From NCBI RefSeq assembly GCF_006152065.1, contig NZ_VDFW01000016.1:1-64000 (forward strand): a stretch of 64,000 nucleotides of DNA, in the 5' to 3' direction. The notes beneath the pieces were generated by a model that ran no database searches, was not told the origin of the DNA, and saw nothing but the letters and a program-made list of their open reading frames with translations. The translations under genes and the position numbers were made by a program. Of this stretch, positions 26,147-38,033 are shown in pieces; position 1 is the first letter of the stretch, and each line of letters starts with the position of its first letter. The DNA is from Amycolatopsis alkalitolerans (GTDB lineage: Bacteria; Actinomycetota; Actinomycetes; Mycobacteriales; Pseudonocardiaceae).

Positions 26147-27228
26147 AGGATCACCACCGAACGCAGCACCTCGCCGGAATGCATGGTGTGGAAGGCTTTC
26201 TCGACGTCGTCGAGCCCGATGCGCTCGGTGACGAACTTCTCCAGCGGCAGCCTGCCCTGCAGGTGGAGGTCGACCAGCGCCGGGAAATCCCGCTCCGGCA
26301 GGCAATCCCCGTACCAGGAGGACTTCAGCGCACCGCCGCGCGAGAAGAAGTCCAGCAGCGGCATGTCCAGGCGCAGGTCGGGGGTCGGCACGCCGACGAG
26401 CACGACGGTGCCCGCCAGGTCCCGCGCGTAGAAGGCCTGCTTCCACGTCTCGGGGCGGCCGACCGCGTCGATGACCACGTCCGCGCCGAACCCACCGGTC
26501 AGCCCGGCGATCGCGGCGACCGGATCGGTGTCCGAGGCGTTGACGGTATGCGTGGCGCCCAGCTCAGCGGCCCACGCCAGCTTCTTCTCGTCCCGGTCTA
26601 CCGCGATGATCGTGGACGCGCCCGCGAGCCGGGCACCGGCGACGGCCGCGTCACCGACGCCCCCGCAGCCGATGACCGCCACGGAATCCCCGCGGCCGAC
26701 CGCGCCGGTGTTGACCGCTGCGCCCAGCCCGGCCATCACGCCACAGCCGAGCAGCCCCGCGACCGCGGGGTCCGCGGCCGGGTCGACCTTTGTGCACTGT
26801 CCGGAGTGGACAAGCGTCTTGTCCGCGAACGCGCCGATCCCGAGCGCGGGGGTGAGCTCGGTGCCGTCGGTGAGCGTCATCTTCTGGCTCGCGTTGAACG
26901 TGTCGAAGCAGTACTGGGGGAGCCCGCGCTTGCAGGCCCGGCACCGGCCACAGACCGCGCGCCAGTTGAGCACGACGAAATCACCCGGCTTCACCGACTC
27001 GACGCCTTCACCGACACTTTCCACGGTGCCGGCGGCCTCGTGGCCGAGCAGGAAGGGGAACTCGTCGTTGATCCCACCGTCCCGATAGGTCAGATCGGTG
27101 TGGCACACCCCACAGGCAGCAACCGCGACGACGACCTCCCCCGGTCCCGGATCGGGAATCACGATATCGACGAGCTCGACCATGGCCCCCTTCGAACGGG
27201 CGATCACACCGCGCACCTGCTGTGGCAT
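26143..27228 (-). CDS. mscR: S-(hydroxymethyl)mycothiol dehydrogenase / nitrosomycothiol reductase
   Basis: A 361-residue zinc alcohol dehydrogenase (class III-like, mycothiol-specific). Catalytic zinc region GVCHTDL and GHEAAGTVE; structural zinc cysteines in [18 protein letters not shown] site [12 protein letters not shown]. Sequence is close to mycobacterial MscR throughout ([20 protein letters not shown]). It oxidises the formaldehyde-mycothiol adduct and reduces S-nitrosomycothiol. ATG at 27228 (MPQQVRG) is chosen because it matches the usual family start; an ATG at 27246 lacks an RBS. Confidence 0.92.
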
Positions 27229-27387
27229 CGGAACCGGCACCTCCATCACTTGGCGTTCAGCGAAAAGGCATGCGCCCCCACGCATACAGTCGCCACGCTA
27301 ACCAGGGATGGTGTGCGCGCGACCTGGCCGTCGGGCCAGGGAAACCTCGACTTCCGACCAGGTAGCCCGGCGGCTACACTCAGCCGG

Positions 27388-28650
27388 ATGCCCGACGCCA
27401 AGGCCCCGCAGGACACCAGCCTCGTCGCACTGCGGGAAGTGATCGACGGCGCGCTGCACGAGATAGCCGGCCGGTTCTCGCGGTTCCTGTCCGGCCGGTG
27501 GCCGCATACCGCCCTCGTCATCTTCACCCGCGAGTGCACCGGCCGGCCACGGAAGGTCGCCGGGGCGACCAAAATGATCAACAAGGTCACCATCGACGAG
27601 CTCGAACAGCTCAAGGCGGCCGTCGAACCCGGCCGTCCGCTGAGCACGACGGCCACGATCGCCGGGGCCGCCCGCACGGTGTGGGCCGTGCGGGATCCGG
27701 TGGGCACGCTGCTCGTGCTCGTTCCCCGTGCGAACGCGAAGCGGTTCCCGGAGCCCGCCGTTCTCGCCGAGATCTTCGGCATCGTCGCGACTTCGATCAG
27801 GCAGCAGGTCACGCAGGCGAGCCCCGACTATCTCGCCGAATCCCGCGCGGCGTCGAACGAACGGGCACGCACGATCGCGGAGATGGCGGCGGCGCACGAA
27901 GGCACGCTCGTCACGATCCTGACCACGCTGCGCTCCACCAGCCTCGGCGACCGCCGCGCCCGGCTCGCCGCCACCGAGTCCGCCTCCGCGGCGCTGGTGG
28001 CGCTGCGGTCCACTCAGGAGTCCGACCTGACGCTGTCCGCGGAGCCCGCACCGGCCGCGTTCGCCAAGCTGCGCAAGGAGATCCGTCAGATGCTGCGGCA
28101 TCATCAGGCGAGAATCGAGTTCGTGTCCCCGCCGGACGCGGGGCGGCCGCTGCCCGGCGACGTCGCCTACGCCGCGCGCGCCATGACCAGGACGGCGGCG
28201 CTCGCCTTCACCGCGCAACCAGGAGTGGCGAGCCTGCGGATCGCCTGGCTCCTCGACGGCGCGAGCCTGCGCGTCGACATGCGCGAGCGCGACTCCGGCC
28301 GCCTCGACGTGACCGCCCTGCACCACCAGCTCGACGGCCGGGCCCGCACCCTCGGGGCGACGATCGGCCTGGACGCGGTACCGGACTGGGGCAGCCGCGC
28401 CACCATCGAACTCCCGCTGGAATCCACCTCGGACCACGAGCGCGACGACCGGCTGTCGAGACTCAACCGGCGAGAGCTGGACGTACTGCGCCTGCTGGCC
28501 CGCGGTACCCGCAACAAGGCGATCGCGACGGAGCTGGGCGTCACCGAAAGCACCGTCAAGTTCCACGTCACCGGCGTGCTGAAGAAGCTGGAGGTCGCCT
28601 CGCGCGGCGAGGCGGCCGCGCTCGCCCTGAAGGCCGGAATCGCACAATAA
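27388..28650 (+). CDS. LuxR-type HTH regulator with N-terminal sensor region
   Basis: A 420-residue regulator. The C-terminus is a GerE/LuxR HTH ([20 protein letters not shown] then [20 protein letters not shown]). The region before it resembles a degraded GAF plus histidine-kinase-like module, with helices around [20 protein letters not shown] and an ATPase-like end [12 protein letters not shown], so the protein resembles regulators that fuse a kinase-like sensor to their own HTH. No phosphoacceptor is evident. It is divergent from mscR; control of the mycothiol pair is possible but not shown. Confidence 0.8.
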
Positions 28651-28652
28651 CC

Positions 28653-28693
28653 GGCACCGGTCCAGGTGCCGCGCCTGACGCGGAGCTCAGGCG
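28653..28693. terminator. Two adjacent hairpins between convergent genes
   Basis: GGCACC/GGTGCC (28653-28658 with 28665-28670) and CGCCTGA/TCAGGCG (28673-28679 with 28687-28693) are perfect dyads in the gap between the LuxR-type gene and the permease gene, the second one touching the permease stop. No U-tracts. Most likely a bidirectional terminator. Confidence 0.55.
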
Positions 28694-29967
28694 AGGAAGC
28701 GGGCTGCGGTCAAGGTCAGCCCGCCGATGGCGATCAGCCACGTGTACGGCAGCGTGCGCGTCATCAGCTTCTCCGGCCGGACGCCGGCGAACTCGGCGCT
28801 CCACACCGTCTGCGTGCTGGTCGGGTCGGACACGCCAAGGAGCTGGTTGTAGGAAGCCATGATGCCGAGCACCGCCTGCGCCGGGTAGACGTGGCCCGCC
28901 AGCAGCACCCCGGCCACCCCGGCGCCCATGCCGTAGATGTTGAAGGGCCCGCGGTAAAGGCACAGCGGCGCGAGCACACCGAGCACCACGACGAACAGCA
29001 CCGGGTTGTGCGGCGTGATCGCGGTGACGAGCGGGCCGAGCGCGTGCACCACCCCGGGCAGCTTGACCGCCTGCAGGAGTATCCCGATCGCGACGAACAG
29101 CATCGCCGGGGCCGCGGCGACTTCGAAACCGCGGAACGCCGTGCGCAGTGCCGTCGGGCCGAGTTTGCCGGGCCGCGTGGTGGTCAGCAGCGCGTACAGG
29201 ATCCCGATCAGCAGGGCCGGCACGATCGGCACGTCCAGCACGAGGGCCAGCAGGATCGGCACGAGCGGGGTGAGCAGCGAGTACCAGGGCGCGTCCGGCC
29301 TGGCCCGCGCGGACCTGCCCGGCGTCTCGGTGCGCATCGCCCAGGCGTGCAAGGTGCCACGGCGGCGCGCCTCGATGAGCACGTAGGCCAGCCCGAGGAC
29401 CAGCACTATCGGGAACAGCGTGAGCTGGAAGTCCCGCACCGCCGACACCGGCACGCCGACCGCCTGGGACAGGAACTGCCACGAGAACAGCTCGAACGGG
29501 ATCCCGGCCGACAGACCGACGACCACCACCCCCGCGGCCGTCACCGGCGGCAGGCCGATGCCGATCAGGGCGGGGATGGCGATCAGCCCGATGAGCATGG
29601 CCGCGGGCGCCGAACCGGTCACCGTGCCGGTCAGGGTCGCGGCCAGGAACACGCCGACCGCGACGCCGTAGGGCCGGTCGCCGCCGAGCTCGACGGTTTT
29701 CCGGACCACTGTGGACGCGATGCCGGTGTGGTCCATCAGCGCGCCCAGCCACGAGCCGAGGATGATCGCGATGATCGTCGACGCGAGCGAGGCCGACCCG
29801 GTCTGCAGGATGCCTTCGCCGATACTGTTCTTGCCACTCACCAGCGGCGCGCCGGCGATCAGTCCGATCACGACGGCCAGCAGCACCAGGGCGAACGCGG
29901 TGGGGAGCTTCCGGCTGAGGATCAGGGCGACACACGCCGCCATCACGACGAGGATGAGCACGGCCAT
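28687..29967 (-). CDS. Ion-transporter-superfamily permease (GntP/CitMHS/DcuC-like)
   Basis: A 426-residue protein with about 11-12 membrane segments, beginning MAVLILVVMAACVALILSRK. The features TGSAPAAML and LYRGPFNIYGMGAG and paired re-entrant-like loops are typical of ion-transporter-superfamily carriers for organic acids and similar small anions. ATG overlaps the stop of the HExxH gene (ATGA). It is the last gene of the seven-gene catabolic operon and should import the substrate handled by the HyuA and FAD enzymes. Confidence 0.75.
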   Translation of the reverse strand: MAVLILVVMAACVALILSRKLPTAFALVLLAVVIGLIAGAPLVSGKNSIGEGILQTGSASLASTIIAIILGSWLGALMDHTGIASTVVRKTVELGGDRPYGVAVGVFLAATLTGTVTGSAPAAMLIGLIAIPALIGIGLPPVTAAGVVVVGLSAGIPFELFSWQFLSQAVGVPVSAVRDFQLTLFPIVLVLGLAYVLIEARRRGTLHAWAMRTETPGRSARARPDAPWYSLLTPLVPILLALVLDVPIVPALLIGILYALLTTTRPGKLGPTALRTAFRGFEVAAAPAMLFVAIGILLQAVKLPGVVHALGPLVTAITPHNPVLFVVVLGVLAPLCLYRGPFNIYGMGAGVAGVLLAGHVYPAQAVLGIMASYNQLLGVSDPTSTQTVWSAEFAGVRPEKLMTRTLPYTWLIAIGGLTLTAARFLA

Positions 29968-30587
29968 CAGACGGCGTCCTTTCCGGTGCGCGCGCCGGCG
30001 GCGACGGCCAGCGCGGCGGTGAGGAGAAGTGGTGAACGGCCGAGCCCGCAGGCCTGGTGCGCGTATCCGTGCGCGAACAGCTCCGGAGTCCCGCTGATGT
30101 GCGCGTAGCGGCGGTAGCGGCCGAGCCGCAGCGCGCGCACGCCGAGCCGTTCTCGCAGCGCGCGGGCCGCGGCGCCGTGCAGCCTCCCGTGCCCGACTTC
30201 GTGCGCGACGGCCGCTTCACGGAGCACGCCCGCCGGGTACCACTCCGCCCAGCCGAGCCGCTCCACGAGCGCGCCGGCGAGTTCAAGGACGTCGTCGTGC
30301 AGCCGGATCTCGTGCCGGCGCTCGGAGTATTCGGCGACGACGACCCAGCCTGGACGCAGCCCCGCCCGGTCGGTCACCACGGTGAACCCGCCCTCGGCAC
30401 CCGATTCCGAGCGTGCCGCGTCGTGTCCGGCTTCGGTCGCGACGGCCGCCCACCGGCTCAGCACCGCGCGCTCCCGGTGCGCGTGGACCTGCTGGTCGCT
30501 GAGGAAGCGAGTAGCCAGCTCGACGTCGTCGAGCCCGGCGAGCCGGGCGCACCGGCGCAGCACCGCCGAGCCCACGGCCGCGGTCAC
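29967..30587 (-). CDS. Small HExxH protein of unknown function, placed after HyuA
   Basis: A 206-residue cytoplasmic protein not recognised. It contains AAVAHEVGHGRLHG with a textbook HExxH (129-133) and further histidines (H137, and YAHIS/AHGYAHQ near the C-terminus) that could complete a zinc site. This could be a small metallopeptidase or metal-dependent hydrolase; alternatively the motif is fortuitous. It overlaps HyuA (GTGA) and the permease (ATGA), sitting where HyuB would normally follow HyuA. GTG start at 30587. Confidence 0.6.
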   Translation of the reverse strand: MTAAVGSAVLRRCARLAGLDDVELATRFLSDQQVHAHRERAVLSRWAAVATEAGHDAARSESGAEGGFTVVTDRAGLRPGWVVVAEYSERRHEIRLHDDVLELAGALVERLGWAEWYPAGVLREAAVAHEVGHGRLHGAAARALRERLGVRALRLGRYRRYAHISGTPELFAHGYAHQACGLGRSPLLLTAALAVAAGARTGKDAV

Positions 30588-32722
30588 GCCCTGGCCTCCG
30601 AGATCAGGGCGACCGGCTCGTCGGCTTCCCGGCCGGCGAACTCGGTCTCGGCCACCCCGAGGACCTGTTCGGCCTTCGTCATCCCGGCGAGGTTGACGAT
30701 CCGGCCGCCGAGCAGCAGATGCAGCGCGGGCAGCCGGGCACCGCCGTCGCCGTACTCGGTCAGCTCCTCCAGCGCGGCGCCGAGCAGCTCGCGCCCCGCA
30801 CCACACGTCGCGACCCGGACCTGGCCGTCCGGTGCCTGGAAACGCACCACACCTTCGCGGTCGACCACCCGCAACGGGACGCCCTTGCGGCGCGACAGCC
30901 GGATCGGTCCTCGCCGCTCGCCGAGCACGCCGTATACGCGGTAGTGCCGGGTCTCCGCGAGCAGCCGGAGGCCGGCCGCGTCGGCGCGCGCGCTTTCCGC
31001 CGCGGTGGCGCGGGCCTGCTCCTCGGCGACGGGCCCGTCGCCGACGTCCTTCGTCCGGAGTTCGGTGGCGCCCGTCGCGACCGCCCGCACGGTGTTGCGC
31101 CGCGGATCGACGACGACGTCCACCTCCACCGACTCGGCCCGGGCGCCTTGGGCGACCACAGCCTGTTCGGCCTCCCGCCGGATGGCGAGCACGTCCGCCT
31201 GGCCGGGATCGGGCACGACCCGTTCGACCTGCTCGCGCACCATCGCCAGGGCCACGCCGATCGGGCTGATCACCTCGTTGTGCGCGGCGATACGGGAGGC
31301 CGCACCCAGCTCCGCGGCGAGGAACGGGGTGACCGACGCCGCTCCGCCTCCGCCGCCGACCAGCACCAGGGAGCGGCGGTCCAGGCGGTACTCCCTGACC
31401 AGCGACTCCACCATGTCCCGGACCGGTCGCACGGCGGCGCGCAGAACCTCCCGCGCCGCTTCGGCGACGCTCACGCCGAGCGACTTCGCCAGCGGCGCGA
31501 ACGCCAGCCGCGCCGCCGCCGGATCCGCGTGCGCGTAGTCGGTTTCCGGCACCAGCTCCAGCGCGAGGGCCGCGCACGAGGTCGTCAGGGCGAACCGGCC
31601 ACCCTCGCCATCGACGGCAACGTAGTCGTCGGGGTCGCCTTCCTTCGGGCGCACGCTGACGAGTTCGGCGCCGCGCAGCGCCGCCGGATCGGCGTAACCG
31701 GCATAGCTCAACCCGGCGATGTGGGCGCTGCGAGGGCCGGCCTCGGTGACCTTCCCACCGCGCACCCGGATCAGCGAACCGCCGCCGACCCCGATCGTGC
31801 GGACGTCCAGCGAGGTCAGGAAGGTGCGGTAACCGCCGATCTCGGCGTGCCGGACCGCGACCCTGCCGCGCCGGATCACGCTGATGTCGGTCGACGTGCC
31901 GCCGGTCTCCAGGAAGATCCCTTCGCCGATCCGCTCGCTCATCAGCGCGCCGGCCACCCCGGCCGCCGGTCCGGACAGCACGGTCAGCAGCGGCCGGCGG
32001 CGCATCTGCTCCAGGTCCATCACCCCGCCGTCGCAGCGCATCACCATCAGCGGCGACGTGATCCCGGCCGCCTTGATGCTCTTGTCCACCAGCTCGGCGG
32101 TGCCGAGCATGCGGGGCAGGATGCTGGCGTTGATCACCGCGGTGCGCACCCGGGTCTTCAGCCCGTACAGCTTGGTGATCTCGTGACTGGTCGAGGCGAT
32201 CGCACCCAGCTCCCTGGCGCAGCTCGCGGCCGCGTCCTCACCGGCGGGATCGTCCACACTGAACGCTTCCGCGGCCACGACGACCTCGCTACCCTCGCCC
32301 ACCAGCCGCCGCACCGCTTCGCCGACCGCGGCCCCCGCGCCCGGGGCGTGCGCGTAGCTCGTGCGCAGGTGTTTGCCCCGCGCCAGCTCGATGTCGTGGC
32401 CGCGGGCCAGCCGCCGGGTCCGCCAGCCGGTGAACCCGCGGCCGAGGCCGACGATCCCGACGTGCGCGACGTCGCCTTCCAGCAGGGCGTTGGTGGCCTG
32501 CGTGGTGCCGTGCGCGAGGAACCCGACGTCCCCGGAGGCATGCCCGGACCGCGCCAGCAGCGCGGTCAGCGCTTCGACGATGCCGTGGGCCACGCCCTCG
32601 GGATGGTGGTGTGTCGTCGGGACCTTGACCTGGCCGACGAGCTCGAGCGTCTGGGCGTCGATCGCGACGGCATCGGTGAACGTGCCGCCGACATCGATGC
32701 CGACGCGGATCCGTGCTGGCAT
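30584..32722 (-). CDS. Hydantoinase/oxoprolinase family protein (HyuA-type)
   Basis: A 712-residue HyuA-family ATPase-fold enzyme. N-terminal RIRVGIDVGGTFTDAVAID (phosphate 1 motif), HGTTQATNALLEG, DGGVMDLEQMRRRPLLTVLS, then LETGGTSTDISVIRRG and the VGGGGGA segment. HyuA proteins use ATP to open hydantoins, 5-oxoproline or related lactam/imide rings, or carboxylate ketones, usually with a HyuB partner; no HyuB gene is in the window. ATG at 32722 follows AAGGAGGTGG, one of the strongest ribosome-binding sites here. It is central to the seven-gene operon. Confidence 0.9.
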   Translation of the reverse strand: MPARIRVGIDVGGTFTDAVAIDAQTLELVGQVKVPTTHHHPEGVAHGIVEALTALLARSGHASGDVGFLAHGTTQATNALLEGDVAHVGIVGLGRGFTGWRTRRLARGHDIELARGKHLRTSYAHAPGAGAAVGEAVRRLVGEGSEVVVAAEAFSVDDPAGEDAAASCARELGAIASTSHEITKLYGLKTRVRTAVINASILPRMLGTAELVDKSIKAAGITSPLMVMRCDGGVMDLEQMRRRPLLTVLSGPAAGVAGALMSERIGEGIFLETGGTSTDISVIRRGRVAVRHAEIGGYRTFLTSLDVRTIGVGGGSLIRVRGGKVTEAGPRSAHIAGLSYAGYADPAALRGAELVSVRPKEGDPDDYVAVDGEGGRFALTTSCAALALELVPETDYAHADPAAARLAFAPLAKSLGVSVAEAAREVLRAAVRPVRDMVESLVREYRLDRRSLVLVGGGGGAASVTPFLAAELGAASRIAAHNEVISPIGVALAMVREQVERVVPDPGQADVLAIRREAEQAVVAQGARAESVEVDVVVDPRRNTVRAVATGATELRTKDVGDGPVAEEQARATAAESARADAAGLRLLAETRHYRVYGVLGERRGPIRLSRRKGVPLRVVDREGVVRFQAPDGQVRVATCGAGRELLGAALEELTEYGDGGARLPALHLLLGGRIVNLAGMTKAEQVLGVAETEFAGREADEPVALISEARA

Positions 32723-32751
32723 GTGCGCCACCTCCTTGTGGTGCCAGCCCG

Positions 32752-34167
32752 CTAGGGCGCGGGTTGTGGACTGCTGGCCGGCCCGGTCGTCCGGCCCAGG
32801 TAAACGCCCCCGGCAAGCAGCGCACGCTGCAGTTCGCCGACGGGGACTTCGCGGGGGGTGACCCCCAGTCGCGCCGCGAGGGCGGCCGCCGTGCCCGCGG
32901 CCTCTCCGGTGGCGAACGCCGGGGGCATCACCCGGATCGCGGCGAGCGCCTCGTGCGTCGCGGACAGGCAGCGCCCGGCCACGAGCAACTGGTCGATCCG
33001 CACCGGCACGAGCGAGCGGTACGGGATCTCGTAGGCGTTCGCGGTCCCCCACGAATCGTCGACGCCGCCGCCGGCACCCGTCGGGTCGTGGATGTCGACC
33101 GGGTAGCCGCACAGCGCCACGACGTCGTCGAAATGCGTGCCGCGTTGCAGGTCGGCCAGCGACAGCACGTGTTCCCCGACGATCCGCCGCGTTTCCCGGA
33201 CGCCGATCGTGGCGGCCGTGTCGAGCAGTTCGCACTCGGCGAACCCGGGCAGTTCCGCCCGGAAGAACCGCACCAGCCGGTCGACCTGGTCGCGCCCCGC
33301 CAGCTCGGCAGCGGTCAGGTCGGCGACGTCGGTGCCGTCCCGCCCGAGGATCCGGGTGGTGTTGATCCGCCACACCCCCCGCCGCAAGGTCTTGTACATG
33401 CCGACGCCGCGCCGGGGCGCCGGGAACCGGCCCTCGGCGGTGGCCGCGGCGACGATGGAGGCGAACGGGCGGAAGTCGTCCGGATGACCGCGCACGTACT
33501 CCTCGACGCGTTCGTCGTCGACACCGCGCACCCGGAAGAACAGGGTCATGGGCTGGGTCAGCCCGTCGGATTCCCGGCCCGTGACCGACTCGGCCCCGGC
33601 GGCGACCGCGACGTCGGCGTCCGCCGAGCAGTCCACCACGACCCGCGCCGGATACAGGCGCAGCCCGCTCTTGCTCGCGCACACCACACCGGTCACCGCG
33701 CCGCCTTCGGTGCACACGTCCGCGACGAAGCTGTGCAGCAGCAGCTCGACCCCGGCCTCCTGGCACATCCGCTCGGCGACCAGCTTCACCGCCTCCGGCT
33801 CGAACGGGGTGACCTTGTCGTGGCCGAACTCGATGAACCCGCTGTACGCGCTGCCCGCCGGGATCTCGCTGGGGTGGCGGGCCTGGCCCAGCTCCGCCAT
33901 CCGCCGCACGAGCTCGTCGAACACGCCCCGGATCAGCTGCTCCGAGCCGTCCAGCGAAAAGGACGTCATGCAGGGGCCGACCAGTCCCGCGGTGAGGTTC
34001 CCGCCGAGGTAGCCGTACCGTTCGACCAGCCGGGTGCGCGCACCCGAGCGGGCCGCGGCGATCGCCGCGGCGATACCGGCCGGGCCGCCACCGACCACGA
34101 GCACGTCGACCGGTGGTGCGACCGGAACGCGCCGCGAATACTCCACAGTGGACGGTTCGATGGACAC
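32752..34167 (-). CDS. FAD-dependent oxidoreductase (PF12831-type)
   Basis: A 471-residue flavoprotein: Rossmann motif DVLVVGGGPAGIAAAIAAA, then RYGYLGGNLTAGLVGP typical of the PF12831 group, an RVVVDCSADADVAVAAGAE segment, and the C-terminal FAD contact LLVAGRCLSATHEALAAIR followed by the MPPAFATGEAAGTAAAL helix. GTG at 34167 is chosen, two bases after the upstream gene's stop; TTG at 34173 is possible. It is paired with another PF12831-like enzyme and a HyuA protein, so oxidation of a ring or side chain before ring opening is plausible. Confidence 0.85.
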   Translation of the reverse strand: MSIEPSTVEYSRRVPVAPPVDVLVVGGGPAGIAAAIAAARSGARTRLVERYGYLGGNLTAGLVGPCMTSFSLDGSEQLIRGVFDELVRRMAELGQARHPSEIPAGSAYSGFIEFGHDKVTPFEPEAVKLVAERMCQEAGVELLLHSFVADVCTEGGAVTGVVCASKSGLRLYPARVVVDCSADADVAVAAGAESVTGRESDGLTQPMTLFFRVRGVDDERVEEYVRGHPDDFRPFASIVAAATAEGRFPAPRRGVGMYKTLRRGVWRINTTRILGRDGTDVADLTAAELAGRDQVDRLVRFFRAELPGFAECELLDTAATIGVRETRRIVGEHVLSLADLQRGTHFDDVVALCGYPVDIHDPTGAGGGVDDSWGTANAYEIPYRSLVPVRIDQLLVAGRCLSATHEALAAIRVMPPAFATGEAAGTAAALAARLGVTPREVPVGELQRALLAGGVYLGRTTGPASSPQPAP

Positions 34168-34169
34168 GC

Positions 34170-35780
34170 TCAATACCCCTTCACTTCGGGCCAGGCCAGT
34201 TCGACGCCGTGGCTGAGCAGCTCCGACTGGAACTCGGCCAGCAGCCGCGGGTCGCCGTGCACCTGGTGCGGCTGCCTGCGGTGGGCGAGGCAGTGCGCGG
34301 CGAGTGCGCCCGCGGCCTCGCCGATGTTCCATTCGACCGGGTGCAGCCGGTAGCAGCCGTTGGTGATGTGCGTGGTTCCGATGTTCTTCGCCGCGGGCAG
34401 CAGGTTGCGCAGCCGGACGGGAAGCAGCGCGCCGAGCGGGATCTGGAACGGGAGGCTGCCCACGTCGATGTAGTTGTCGCCGCCCGTCGAGGGGTGCAGG
34501 TCGATGCGATACGAGCCGACACCGACCGAGTCGGCATACCGGGTGGCGCCGCGTTCGCCTCGCACGGCAAGGGAAACGTCGTTCTCGGTGACGGTGCGAA
34601 CAGCCTCGATCCGCCGGCTTTCCCTGATATAAGGGGCTTTCGCCAGGCCGTCGTCAGTGCCGACGATGTCCGGCCGGAGGCGCAGACCGGGAAAACCGGT
34701 GCCGCCGTCCGGGCGCGGCGCTTCGGTCTGCAGCCAGTACAGCAGGCTCAGCGACAGCTGCCGCGCCTGGTCGAGGTGACGCCCAGCGGTGTCCGCGTCG
34801 ACCTCGATCACGTTGCCGAGCCAGTAGTCGTTCATCGGCCAGTTCACGAGCGTGACGTCCGAGTCGAACGCGCCGGGCACATGGTTCGCGACGGCGATGA
34901 TGCGCCGGAACAGCCACAAGCCGCGGTCGCCCTGGTCCTGGCTCTGGTCGGCGTCGACGCTCGTCGTGTCTTCGCCCGGGTTGGGCACGAAGGTCCGTTC
35001 GGAGACCTCGAGCGTGCGCGGGTCGGGCGCCTTCAGCCCGAGGAGCGGGCCTGGCCAGAACTCGGGCTGGTAGTTGCGCCAGAACCCGTACTCGCGAGGC
35101 CGGTCGATGACATGGTCTTCACCTTCACGGTGGTCCACTGCGAAGCAGAACGTGATGCCCTGCATGTTGTCCGGCCGCGCGACCGACGGCGCGCGCGGCT
35201 CGCCGTGCCGGTCCTGACTCTCCGCCCCGGTCACGTACTCCGCGCCGGCCAGCGGCAGCAGGTCGCCACCCTCGGTGGCGTCGAGCACGTAGTCCGCTTG
35301 CACGGTAAGGGTTTCACCGCCGGGCGCGCGCAGGGTCACCGCACGGACCAGGTCACCGTCCACTTCGGCCGCCACCGGCGAATGTCCGATCAGGACGGTC
35401 AGGCGGCCGGCCGCGCGATGCGGCGCGAGCATCGACTCGAGGACGGCCAGCGCGACCCGGGGCTCGTGGCACAGCTTGCTCACCCTGCCCGCGCCGGGGT
35501 TGAGGTGCCGCGTCGCCCGGGCGGCCTCGGTGAGCGGGTAGTGATCGCGGTAGTAGCCGCGGATACCGTCGCGGAGCCGGCGGTAGGACGCGGTGGCCCC
35601 GAACTGTTCGATCCACGGGTGCTCGTCGGGCGGCACCGCCTGGCTCGTCAGCTGCCCGCCCAGCCAGTCGGTGGGCTCGGTGAGCACGACGTGACGGCCG
35701 GCCCGGCACGCGGCGAGCGCGGCGGCCACGCCACCGACGCCGCCTCCGACGACGAGCACTTCGGTACGGATTTCGGTCAC
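34170..35780 (-). CDS. FAD-dependent oxidoreductase (PF12831-type, larger paralogue)
   Basis: A 536-residue flavoprotein with TEVLVVGGGVGGVAAALAA at the N-terminus, then EPTDWLGGQLTSQAVPPDEH and YVLDATEGGDLLPLAGAEYV. The long central insertion (to ~residue 400) and LPAAKNIGTTHITNGCYRLH near the end are typical of the group that includes proteins annotated only as FAD-dependent oxidoreductase. It is probably a paralogue of the next gene but clearly diverged. GTG overlaps the regulator stop (GTGA). Confidence 0.85.
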   Translation of the reverse strand: MTEIRTEVLVVGGGVGGVAAALAACRAGRHVVLTEPTDWLGGQLTSQAVPPDEHPWIEQFGATASYRRLRDGIRGYYRDHYPLTEAARATRHLNPGAGRVSKLCHEPRVALAVLESMLAPHRAAGRLTVLIGHSPVAAEVDGDLVRAVTLRAPGGETLTVQADYVLDATEGGDLLPLAGAEYVTGAESQDRHGEPRAPSVARPDNMQGITFCFAVDHREGEDHVIDRPREYGFWRNYQPEFWPGPLLGLKAPDPRTLEVSERTFVPNPGEDTTSVDADQSQDQGDRGLWLFRRIIAVANHVPGAFDSDVTLVNWPMNDYWLGNVIEVDADTAGRHLDQARQLSLSLLYWLQTEAPRPDGGTGFPGLRLRPDIVGTDDGLAKAPYIRESRRIEAVRTVTENDVSLAVRGERGATRYADSVGVGSYRIDLHPSTGGDNYIDVGSLPFQIPLGALLPVRLRNLLPAAKNIGTTHITNGCYRLHPVEWNIGEAAGALAAHCLAHRRQPHQVHGDPRLLAEFQSELLSHGVELAWPEVKGY

Positions 35781-36838
35781 AGCTCCCCCATTTCGGCGGT
35801 ACGGGCGGCGCGCGGCGCCGCGGTCGTGCTGCCCTCGACCGGTGTGCAGGCCAGCAGCTCCTGCCTGCCCGCGGCGCGGTCACCGGACAACAGGGCGATC
35901 AGCATGCGCGCGGCGCGACGGCCCATTTCCCTTCGTGGCAGGGCGAAACCGGTCACCACCGGTTCACCGGGACGCTGGTAGACCTCCTCGCCGAGCATCG
36001 CGAGCGAGAAGTCGCCGGGACAGCCGAGCCCGGCCGATTCGGCGGCGGAGCGCAGCGCGCCGGCCGCCGCCTGCGTGTCGGTCGCTTCCACGACCAGTGC
36101 CGTGGCACCTTCGGCGAGCCAGGCCCGCAGGCGGTCCGGGCCGAGATCGCCGCCGTCGGTCCGGATCACCTCGCCCCGCAGCCCCGTCTCCCGCAGCCCC
36201 AGCCGGAAACCGTCTTCCCGGTCTACGGAGGCCACCGCCTGGTCGGGTTCGCGGACGTAGTAGACGCGCCGGTGGCCCAGCGCGGCCAGTTCGGCGACGA
36301 CGTCGGCCGAAGCCCGCACGTAGTCGGCACCGACGTAGGGCAACCGGGTGCCCACGCTGTCGTTGCGACCGAGGTAGACGATCGGGAACTCGTCGTCGAG
36401 CAGCCGGGCCAGTTCGTCCGCCGGCGCGTGACGTCCGATGAGGACACAGCCGTCGGCCAGCCGTAACCGGTTCAGGCCGGTGCTGTCCGGCTCGCCGCCC
36501 GAGCCGGTGAACAGCAGCAGGTCGTACCCCTGCGCGGCGGCCTCCTCTTCGACGCCGACCAGGAACGGGTAGTAGGAGTTGCGGAAGTCGACCGGGAAGG
36601 TGGCCATGAACGTGTACACGCCGAGCAGGCGGTTGTTGCGCAAGACCAGCCGGCGCGCGGCGGGATCGGCGACATAGCCCAGTTCCCTGGCCGCGTCCAT
36701 GACCCGCTTGCGGGTTTCCGGCGCGAGCGCGAGCGCGGTCTCCGAACCCCCGAGGACCAGCGACACGGTCGCCTGGGAGACCCCGGCGATGCGGGCGATG
36801 TCGGCCTGCCGGGGACGGCCCCCGCGACGTCCGGTCAT
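35777..36838 (-). CDS. LacI family transcriptional regulator
   Basis: A 353-residue regulator encoded inside the operon. HTH ADIARIAGVSQATVSLVLGG, hinge YVADPAARRLVLRNN, then a sugar-binding-type sensor. The ATG overlaps the SDR stop (ATGA) and the gene end overlaps the FAD enzyme start, so the regulator is made with the enzymes and probably autoregulates. The CG-centred dyad at 37637-37652 is its likely operator. Confidence 0.92.
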   Translation of the reverse strand: MTGRRGGRPRQADIARIAGVSQATVSLVLGGSETALALAPETRKRVMDAARELGYVADPAARRLVLRNNRLLGVYTFMATFPVDFRNSYYPFLVGVEEEAAAQGYDLLLFTGSGGEPDSTGLNRLRLADGCVLIGRHAPADELARLLDDEFPIVYLGRNDSVGTRLPYVGADYVRASADVVAELAALGHRRVYYVREPDQAVASVDREDGFRLGLRETGLRGEVIRTDGGDLGPDRLRAWLAEGATALVVEATDTQAAAGALRSAAESAGLGCPGDFSLAMLGEEVYQRPGEPVVTGFALPRREMGRRAARMLIALLSGDRAAGRQELLACTPVEGSTTAAPRAARTAEMGEL

Positions 36839-37638
36839 CGCAGCATCAGCCCACCGTCGACGTCGAGCGCCGCCCCGTGGACGAACGAAGCGCCCGGGGA
36901 GGACAGGAACAACGCGGCCGCGGCCATGTCGCCGGGCCGTCCCATCCGGCCGACCGGGATGGCCGTCGCGATGCGCTGCTTGAGCTCGGCCGGCACGGCG
37001 GCGTGCATCGGGGTGTCGGACGGACCCGGCACGAGCGCGTTGACCCGCACGCCGGTCGAGGCGAACTCCCTGGCCAGCGACTTGACCAGGGACAGCACGC
37101 CCGCCTTGCTCGCCGCGTACGCCGAGTCGGCGATCAGGCCGCCCCCACCACGGAAGCCGGCGTCCGACGCCACGAGCACGACGGTGCCCGAGCCGGCCTT
37201 CTCCATGTGCCGGAGCGCGGCCTGAGCCACGACGAAGGCGCCGACCAGGTTGATGTCGAGCACCCGCCGCCAGTGCGCGGCGTCCGCCTCGCGGGAATGG
37301 CAGGCGGTGATGACGGCGGCACAGTGCAGCACGTGGTCGAGGCGGCCGGTCTCTTCGACGATCCCGTCCACCGCCCGCGCGACGGCCGATTCGTCGGTCA
37401 CGTCGAGCACGAGGGCCGTGGCTCCGGGCACGGCCGCTTCGCGCACCCCGTCCTCGTCGCGGTCGGCCAGGACGACCCGTGCCCCACACGCGGCGAACGC
37501 CTGCGCGGCCGCCAGCCCCATTCCGCCCGCCGCCCCGGTCACGAGCGCGACCCGGCCGGCGAAGCCGTCCGACGCGAACGCGCGGCACTCGGGAGCCAAC
37601 CCGGCCCCGTTGCTGGTGCTCATTGCCTCTCGTTTCAT
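36835..37638 (-). CDS. SDR family oxidoreductase, first gene of the catabolic operon
   Basis: A 267-residue classical SDR: VTGAAGGMG (33-41), the usual catalytic triad with DSAYAASKAG, and the ending ALDVDGGLMLR. Two starts are possible: ATG at 37638 (no ribosome-binding site, probably leaderless, overlapping the dyad) and ATG at 37623 with GAGAGG only two bases away. It heads the unit SDR - LacI - FAD - FAD - HyuA - HExxH - permease, all overlapping or within 30 bases. Confidence 0.82.
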   Translation of the reverse strand: MKREAMSTSNGAGLAPECRAFASDGFAGRVALVTGAAGGMGLAAAQAFAACGARVVLADRDEDGVREAAVPGATALVLDVTDESAVARAVDGIVEETGRLDHVLHCAAVITACHSREADAAHWRRVLDINLVGAFVVAQAALRHMEKAGSGTVVLVASDAGFRGGGGLIADSAYAASKAGVLSLVKSLAREFASTGVRVNALVPGPSDTPMHAAVPAELKQRIATAIPVGRMGRPGDMAAAALFLSSPGASFVHGAALDVDGGLMLR

Positions 37639-37652
37639 TAATGCGTATTAAT
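37637..37652. promoter_or_regulatory. Probable LacI-type operator ATTAATGCGTATTAAT
   Basis: A 16-bp dyad centred on CG with one mismatch, in a short AT-rich island at the 5' end of the SDR-LacI operon. It overlaps the first possible ATG, so a bound repressor would block transcription start. The shape (CG centre, 7-8 bp arms) fits a LacI-family protein, most simply the one encoded at 35777. Confidence 0.65.
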
Positions 37653-37957: not shown

Positions 37958-38031
37958 GGGCCGGTAGCTCAGTTGGTTAGAGCAGGGGACTCATAATCCC
38001 TTGGCCGCGGGTTCGAGCCCCGCCCGGCCCA
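37958..38031 (+). tRNA. tRNA-Ile2 (anticodon CAU, lysidine-modified); easily mislabelled tRNA-Met
   Basis: A complete cloverleaf: acceptor GGGCCGG (37958-37964) pairs CCGGCCC (38024-38030), discriminator A. D arm AGCTCAGTTGGTTAGAGC, T arm GGTTCGAGCCC. The anticodon loop is CTCATAA with CAT at 37992-37994. The stem GGGGA/TCCCT with a G-T first pair followed by TGGCC is the pattern of E. coli ileX (tRNA-Ile2), not of elongator tRNA-Met, so C34 should be converted to lysidine by TilS to read AUA. CCA is not encoded. Its 3' end is duplicated at 39019. Confidence 0.9.
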
Positions 38032-38033
38032 CC
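38010..38033 (+). repeat. attL-like 24-bp segment: 3' end of the tRNA gene
   Basis: The T-arm and acceptor end of the tRNA (GGTTCGAGCCC ... GGCCCACC) recur at 39019-39042 with one mismatch. Such direct repeats of a tRNA 3' end flank integrated elements made by tyrosine recombinases. This copy is the one that keeps the tRNA intact. Confidence 0.75.

Follow-up and report, generated by a model that had tools for sequence, protein, structure and literature searches.

A HyuA-clade protein and a predicted HExxH metalloprotein in a conserved actinobacterial operon

Proteins of the HyuA type are common (847 plasmid records hold a match) and are routinely named hydantoinase or oxoprolinase, with HyuB as the expected partner. 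What can a HyuA be doing in an operon that has no HyuB? The question is raised by a 64,000-nucleotide stretch of DNA from Amycolatopsis alkalitolerans (assembly GCF_006152065.1, contig NZ_VDFW01000016.1, positions 1 to 64,000; hereafter the window), in which a HyuA gene is followed by one encoding a small HExxH protein. The pairing points to an undescribed breakdown route for a probably sugar-derived compound. Our preferred reading, at a probability of roughly 0.4, is that of a LacI-repressed catabolic operon in which an oxidised ring compound would be phosphorylated by HyuA and hydrolysed by the HExxH metalloprotein, which would replace HyuB.

An initial annotation of the window had described seven genes lying head to tail on one strand with tight spacing, behind a CG-centred dyad. 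Their coordinates, order and spacing were confirmed: all seven lie on the minus strand between 28687 and 37638, adjoining genes overlap by 1-4 base pairs (bp) or, once, are separated by a 29-bp gap, and the dyad is TTAATACGCATTAA. The genome is GC-rich and 6.78 Mb in size, with the operon on contig C8. From the operator onwards the features are as follows.

37638-37651, minus strand: LacI-type operator TTAATACGCATTAA, a CG-centred dyad with consensus core TAATNCGNATTA
36835-37638, minus strand: SDR-family dehydrogenase (PF13561/PF00106), accessory
35777-36838, minus strand: LacI-family repressor (PF00356 and PF13377), core
34170-35780, minus strand: FAD1, a PF12831 flavoenzyme (expectation value (E) 1.2e-106), core
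32752-34173, minus strand: FAD2, a second PF12831 flavoenzyme (E 3.2e-131), accessory
30584-32722, minus strand: HyuA-clade protein with Hydant_A_N and Hydantoinase_A (PF05378 and PF01968) above cut-off, core
29967-30587, minus strand: predicted zincin-like metalloprotein of 206 residues (HExxH...E, with invariant HExxH and E169), core, in HyuB's place
28687-29967, minus strand: DcuC/GntP/CitMHS-type permease, core, with a weak DcuC match below cut-off

With the starts chosen, overlaps of 4 bp occur at SDR/LacI, LacI/FAD1, FAD1/FAD2 and HyuA/HExxH and one of 1 bp at HExxH/permease, the gap being that between FAD2 and HyuA. For the SDR gene a start at 37623 is as likely as the one at 37638. The likeness of the permease to DcuC and CitMHS is weak and stays below cut-off.

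A HyuA clade without HyuB

HyuB was sought with queries from the genome itself, which carries eight HyuB genes, each near a HyuA and none near the operon HyuA; the nearest, and the only one on the operon's contig, is about 100 kb away. Seven separate HyuB queries matched no clade locus (85 HyuA loci, the window, plasmid loci and 13 further loci), and the eighth, a fused HyuA-HyuB protein (L107), matched through its HyuA half only (residues 3-196). A HyuB hidden nearby was rejected on these searches. The description of a HyuA without HyuB in the initial annotation is supported, none having been found in the loci searched. Elsewhere in the genomes, HyuB was found somewhere in 26 of the 43 operon-bearing genomes searched and gave no match in 17, a set for which completeness is not stated and which includes some metagenome bins. 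Among the plasmids, HyuB is present in 1/5, some 84 kb from its HyuA.

Motif counts, like the operator counts below, refer to a set of 85 actinobacterial loci. Phosphate motif 1 (DVGGTFTD) is kept in all of them and reads DVGGTFTK in Deinococcus (L096). Phosphate motif 2 is ETGGTSTD, not DxGGT, in 85/85; outside this set, DVGGT occurs in the haloarchaeal loci L100 and L101 and the E version in L094, L095, L096 and L102. The adenosine motif GxxPGP is found in 0/85, its place being taken by GPRSAHIAG in every locus, whereas the eight HyuB-paired HyuA of the same genome, used as a control, have PGP at this site in 8/8 cases and the full GxxPGP in 6/8. Hydant_A_N and Hydantoinase_A domains were recognised in all 27 clade members scanned, and Hydant_A_C (PF19278) in 0/27 at E 0.01, compared with 6/6 canonical HyuA scanned (out of the same eight). 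In a midpoint-rooted tree, computed with long-branch warnings and leaving out L163, 34 clade members split from the eight HyuB-paired HyuA at 100/100. Judged by its sequence, the operon HyuA belongs to a clade distinct from HyuB-paired HyuA. A further HyuA-like stretch is present in the same genome (G000:C1:382350-382850, covering 174 of 291 profile positions), with no HyuB listed nearby.

The predicted structure of the operon HyuA (mean pLDDT 82) best matches N-methylhydantoinase, acetone/acetophenone carboxylase subunits (5svc, 5l9w, 5m45) and caprolactamase, with TM-scores (query length) of 0.49-0.60; ASKHA sugar and glycerol kinases come lower in the list. Six solved sequences match the HyuA profile, and their names are N-methylhydantoinase, 5-oxoprolinase (6yra, the caprolactamase) and acetone/acetophenone carboxylase subunits. 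The best NCBIfam match is caprolactamase alpha, at E 4.7e-28 and 97.9 bits against a cut-off of 1000. These solved relatives and the caprolactamase match speak for the pathway proposed by the initial annotation, in which a substrate would first be oxidised and its nitrogen ring, of a lactam, imide or hydantoin-like kind, then opened at the cost of ATP, the HExxH protein standing in for HyuB. We regard that pathway as improbable, given the deep split from HyuB-paired HyuA, a core that includes no amidase, carbamoylase or aminotransferase, and the sugar-type context of the core and of homologous loci described below.

The HExxH protein and the five-gene core

Which of the seven genes stay together in relatives was read from 80 loci, the best 80 of 241 that matched short peptide patterns taken from the operon HyuA, a choice that favours close relatives. 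They come from named actinobacterial genomes, mostly Streptomyces. A separate search for the HExxH protein found it in 5/60 relatives. The order LacI-FAD1-HyuA-HExxH-permease, all on the same strand, is kept in 74/80 loci and in 5/5 relatives. FAD1 is present in 79/80, as are the HExxH protein and the permease, the single miss of these two (L078) falling on a short contig that breaks off at this point. In 72/79 loci the HExxH start and the HyuA stop share exactly 4 bp. LacI lies on the core strand in 74/80 loci and 5/5 relatives. In six loci no LacI was counted: four (L013, L038, L066 and L078) start just before FAD1, one (L072) has LacI on the opposite strand and one (L069) gave no match. FAD2, by comparison, is found in 3/80 loci (L007, L027 and L069), and an SDR of the window's type adjoins LacI in only two of them (L007 and L027); a third counted SDR (L043) appears to be a distant 36% match and not the same gene.

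By gene order across these loci, the conserved unit comprises the five genes LacI-FAD1-HyuA-HExxH-permease, with SDR and FAD2 as rare accessories. A unit of seven genes, as the initial annotation had it, was rejected because of the rarity of these two. The idea of one regulated catabolic unit did find support. Neither of the two findings by which the initial annotation would have been refuted came up: the loci searched yielded no HyuB, and in relatives the genes are not scattered.

The HExxH protein itself, read from automatic gene starts, was aligned from 41 of the 85 sequences, with the unsure L027 (which holds a stop), L062, L063 and L079 left out. H129, E130, H133 and E169 are invariant in 41/41, which suggests that E169 would serve as the third ligand and that a metal would be bound. 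Chance occurrence of the motif was rejected, given that neither it nor E169 varies and that the gene is conserved. No significant family match was found in Pfam, NCBIfam or PDB sequence profiles. The AlphaFold model is confident (mean pLDDT 93), but Foldseek gave no significant match against PDB and viral models. The best of the weak hits is to selecase and minigluzincins at E 0.7, and those in the viral library are SprT, M48 and IrrE-type phage models. That a HExxH protein occupies HyuB's place, as initially proposed, is supported, and the protein is conserved together with HyuA.

The pair is also found far from the actinobacteria. Plasmid searches recovered full-length clade HyuA from haloarchaea as well as from Selenomonas, at 43-46%. 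Of the five haloarchaeal plasmids with a full-length match, four were opened (P0008 and P0016-P0018). All four encode HyuA, a permease, a FAD-dependent oxidoreductase and a small HExxH protein, whose start again overlaps the HyuA stop by 4 bp in 4/4. The oxidoreductases are so named by annotation, and the one scanned is PF12831; the permeases are of the DcuC/NhaC/citrate type, one homologue at 33% identity matching DcuC above cut-off. The assumption of a HyuB partner is broken by this clade in a checkable way: GPRSAHIAG, the missing C-terminal domain, no HyuB found, and another putative metalloprotein adjoining, in bacteria and archaea alike.

A clade HyuA matching at E 1e-90 or below was found in 10 of the 396 phylum genomes. 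The typical core is present in the window genome and in G186, and the distribution by HExxH profile is sparse (2/396, own genome counted). Four small genomes (L157-L160) carry a permease, HyuA, a HExxH protein and a FAD2-like enzyme, with a winged-helix protein as regulator in both genomes scanned. A plain profile search fails between the HExxH groups, and their kinship therefore rests on profile-profile comparison, hhalign relating the three at 91.5% (E 8.7e-7), 82% and 93%. In the other four (L161-L164), no HExxH gene was found beside HyuA. Three of these loci (L161, L162 and L164), together with Deinococcus L096, form a second branch of the clade tree, and no HExxH was found beside HyuA in any of the four. 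The Deinococcus HyuA adjoins an annotated FTR1-family protein and, by eye, the neighbour of HyuA in L096, L163 and L164 is a small membrane-anchored protein with a similar start.

Operator, neighbours and probable substrate

The LacI protein has a helix-turn-helix domain (PF00356) and a Peripla_BP domain (PF13377), both above cut-off. According to a review of LacI regulons (PMC4052901), most characterised factors of this family sense sugars, and their even palindromes carry a central CG. TAATNCGNATTA fits this norm, being an even palindrome that has CG at its centre and lies upstream of the operon. As a 12-base core pattern it has a single match in the whole 6.78 Mb genome and none in 100 shuffles of the window. 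The 85 loci (1.72 Mb) contain 122 such sites; from 121 of these, the start of an SDR, LacI or FAD1 gene follows within 300 bp, and a site precedes the operon in 71/85. Three loci without the standard site (L076, L080 and L083) carry the variant dyad CTCATACGTATGA(G/A). The pattern was not found in the haloarchaeal loci, in Selenomonas (L095), or in L098, L099, L103, L104, L115 and L120. No published operator or pathway fitting this locus turned up in text searches of open-licence PubMed Central (PMC) papers. Being unique and conserved, the operator offers a direct handle on the substrate: a compound that releases LacI would be the inducer.

A single operator in the genome, a core that contains no central-metabolism enzymes and the sparse distribution across the phylum would also suit a detoxification or repair module, which might for example clear a damaged, over-oxidised sugar or lactone metabolite and would not be a growth pathway. 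We think this very improbable, as the dedicated permease and the signal-like N-terminus of the propeller-like protein that most relatives have speak for a substrate from outside the cell.

This propeller-like protein, of about 335 residues, accompanies the core in 65/80 loci (for example L008:14112-15125) and 3/5 relatives. Its gene stands behind the permease in Streptomyces-type loci and is divergent from LacI in L087, L088 and L091; homologues occur in 2/4 haloarchaeal loci (E 1.7e-63 and 1.2e-52), at L100:14475-16157 and L101:14971-15978. It bears a weak likeness to five-bladed-propeller glycosidases (GH43/GH130/GH117/levansucrase), with no glycosidase family above the Pfam cut-off in the three bacterial and two haloarchaeal proteins scanned.

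The flavoenzymes provide further clues. FAD1 matched 49 plasmid records, of which eight were opened; these loci have a FAD1 homologue and no HyuA, and three of them are without annotation. All five annotated ones (L097, L098, L099, L103 and L104) combine the FAD1 homologue with LacI and a sugar ATP-binding cassette (ABC) transporter, and in the three unannotated ones LacI adjoins FAD1. TAATNCGNATTA is found near LacI in 4/8 (L097, L105, L106 and L116). Some proteins without a Pfam family lie near these FAD1-sugar ABC loci (L097:14699-15400, L103:4063-4785 and L104:4316-6694) and are possible clues to the FAD1 substrate.

In Rhizobium (L115, 9071-13761), a SDR (52%) stands beside FAD2 (64%), near a DUF6772 protein, a sugar-type ABC transporter and a galactonate-dehydratase-like enzyme of the enolase superfamily, the match to the latter lying below that model's cut-off. 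The locus, likely one for sugar acids, employs enzymes related to the accessory ones of the window and indicates that SDR and FAD2 can move together as a separate pair. In L120, FAD2 occurs with LacI and no SDR match. Deduction of the substrate from the flavoenzymes alone was dropped, PF12831 contexts being too varied.

Taken together, LacI and its operator, the propeller-like neighbour and the FAD1 and SDR-FAD2 contexts favour a carbohydrate-derived substrate over a hydantoin, and we hold such an origin to be quite probable. The leaning of the initial annotation towards a lactam, imide or hydantoin ring is not supported by these contexts.

Two neighbours of the operon may be mentioned. A tRNA-Met gene (anticodon CAT, window 37958-38033) lies just beyond its operator end and is a possible island boundary. 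At the other end, a large plus-strand open reading frame (window 26179-28650) is convergent with the operon, and its C-terminus resembles, by eye, a LuxR-type helix-turn-helix.

Proposed mechanism and known systems

In a LacI-repressed catabolic operon of the kind we prefer, the compound handled would be carbohydrate-derived and probably acidic or oxidised. The propeller-like protein, where present, would release or bind it outside the cell, and the DcuC/GntP-type permease would import it. Oxidation by FAD1, helped here by SDR and FAD2, would give a cyclic lactone, lactam or ketone. HyuA would then use ATP to phosphorylate the activated carbonyl, a reaction that has been proposed for CapA and related proteins, and the HExxH metalloprotein would hydrolyse the phosphorylated intermediate, a step proposed elsewhere for the metal-dependent HyuB/CapB. 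In a paper on caprolactamase (PMC8453981), CapA is proposed to phosphorylate the substrate; CapB, the metal enzyme that hydrolyses it, carries the metal site and is where ring opening is proposed to occur.

With HyuB missing and HyuA linked instead to another predicted metalloprotein, the most economical explanation is that the hydrolytic partner has been replaced and that the pair would act on what the flavoenzyme produces. It is reasonably likely that HyuA and the HExxH protein form one functional pair; that the pair carries out HyuB-like, ATP-driven hydrolysis is a more tentative proposition. A bolder version, which we consider rather doubtful, would make the two an undescribed two-part ATP-driven hydrolase, found in bacteria and haloarchaea, whose target is the oxidised ring of a carbohydrate, a stable lactone or lactam sugar that the PF12831 flavoenzyme produces. 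If the pair is indeed an enzyme, it would be an independent solution to ATP-driven hydrolysis.

Several points weigh against this scheme. The loss of GxxPGP and the replacement of DxGGT by ETGGTSTD mean that ATP use by HyuA is not assured from its motifs, which is a real reason for doubt. No significant structural match was obtained for the model of the HExxH protein, and peptidases are frequent among such folds. The actinobacterial HExxH profile misses the haloarchaeal proteins even at E 10 (one protein tried), as well as those of the small genomes. As to the substrate, there is no propeller match in the window's genome and no glycosidase or typical sugar kinase among the seven genes. The FAD2 of L120 adjoins an oligopeptide-type ABC transporter, a distant FAD2 homologue (L117, 38%) is found in a tripartite-tricarboxylate-transporter context, and a DcuC/GntP-type permease suits organic acids as well as sugar acids. 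Finally, the Selenomonas plasmid pSRC1 (L095) encodes a permease, a FAD2-like enzyme and clade HyuA, but no HExxH protein was found in the locus or on the plasmid (the chromosome was not searched), so that HyuA may not need HExxH.

The Selenomonas locus, like L096 and L161-L164, would be explained if clade HyuA acted alone as an ASKHA kinase on a sugar acid, enol or alcohol supplied by the flavoenzymes, with the HExxH protein as a protease or a maturation or regulatory factor. The ASKHA kinases lower in the fold list and the weak resemblance of the HExxH protein to IrrE/SprT/minigluzincin-type zincins agree with this. We nevertheless judge it unlikely: the adjacency of HExxH and HyuA and their 4-bp overlap are kept in actinobacteria and haloarchaea, one would not expect a regulatory protease in almost all copies of the operon, and the second branch stands in other gene contexts, one of its members having the changed phosphate motif 1.

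How does the proposed HyuA-HExxH pair compare with systems already described? The gene set is not described in titles or abstracts among the matches listed from open-licence PMC papers, and the accessible part of a paper on HyuA/HyuB and caprolactam (PMC9477822) has no bearing on this clade. Caprolactamase CapAB, 5-oxoprolinase and N-methylhydantoinase share with it the Hydant_A_N and Hydantoinase_A domains, DxGGTFTD and the overall fold; there, too, hydrolysis has been proposed to fall to a metal-dependent partner (PMC8453981). Unlike the HyuA-HyuB family, however, the clade was found without HyuB, Hydant_A_C and GxxPGP, has mostly E for D in motif 2, and is partnered by an unrelated HExxH protein. 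The kinase-type subunits of acetone and acetophenone carboxylases (5svc, 5l9w, 5m45) have a HyuA-like fold, but there is no HyuB-type or small carboxylase subunit among the seven genes.

Minigluzincin, IrrE and SprT-type zincins resemble the HExxH protein in having HExxH and a downstream conserved Glu, in addition to the weak Foldseek matches; the HExxH protein differs from them in being operonic with HyuA and has no significant match to them in sequence or structure. The LacI sugar ABC/PF12831 loci of rhizobia, Deinococcus, Streptomyces and Nonomuraea lack HyuA and HExxH, as judged from annotation in the five annotated loci, and these five have a sugar ABC transporter in place of the permease, but the loci share with the operon a FAD1 homologue at 58-68% identity, clustered with LacI in 8/8 of the loci opened, and the same operator in 4/8.

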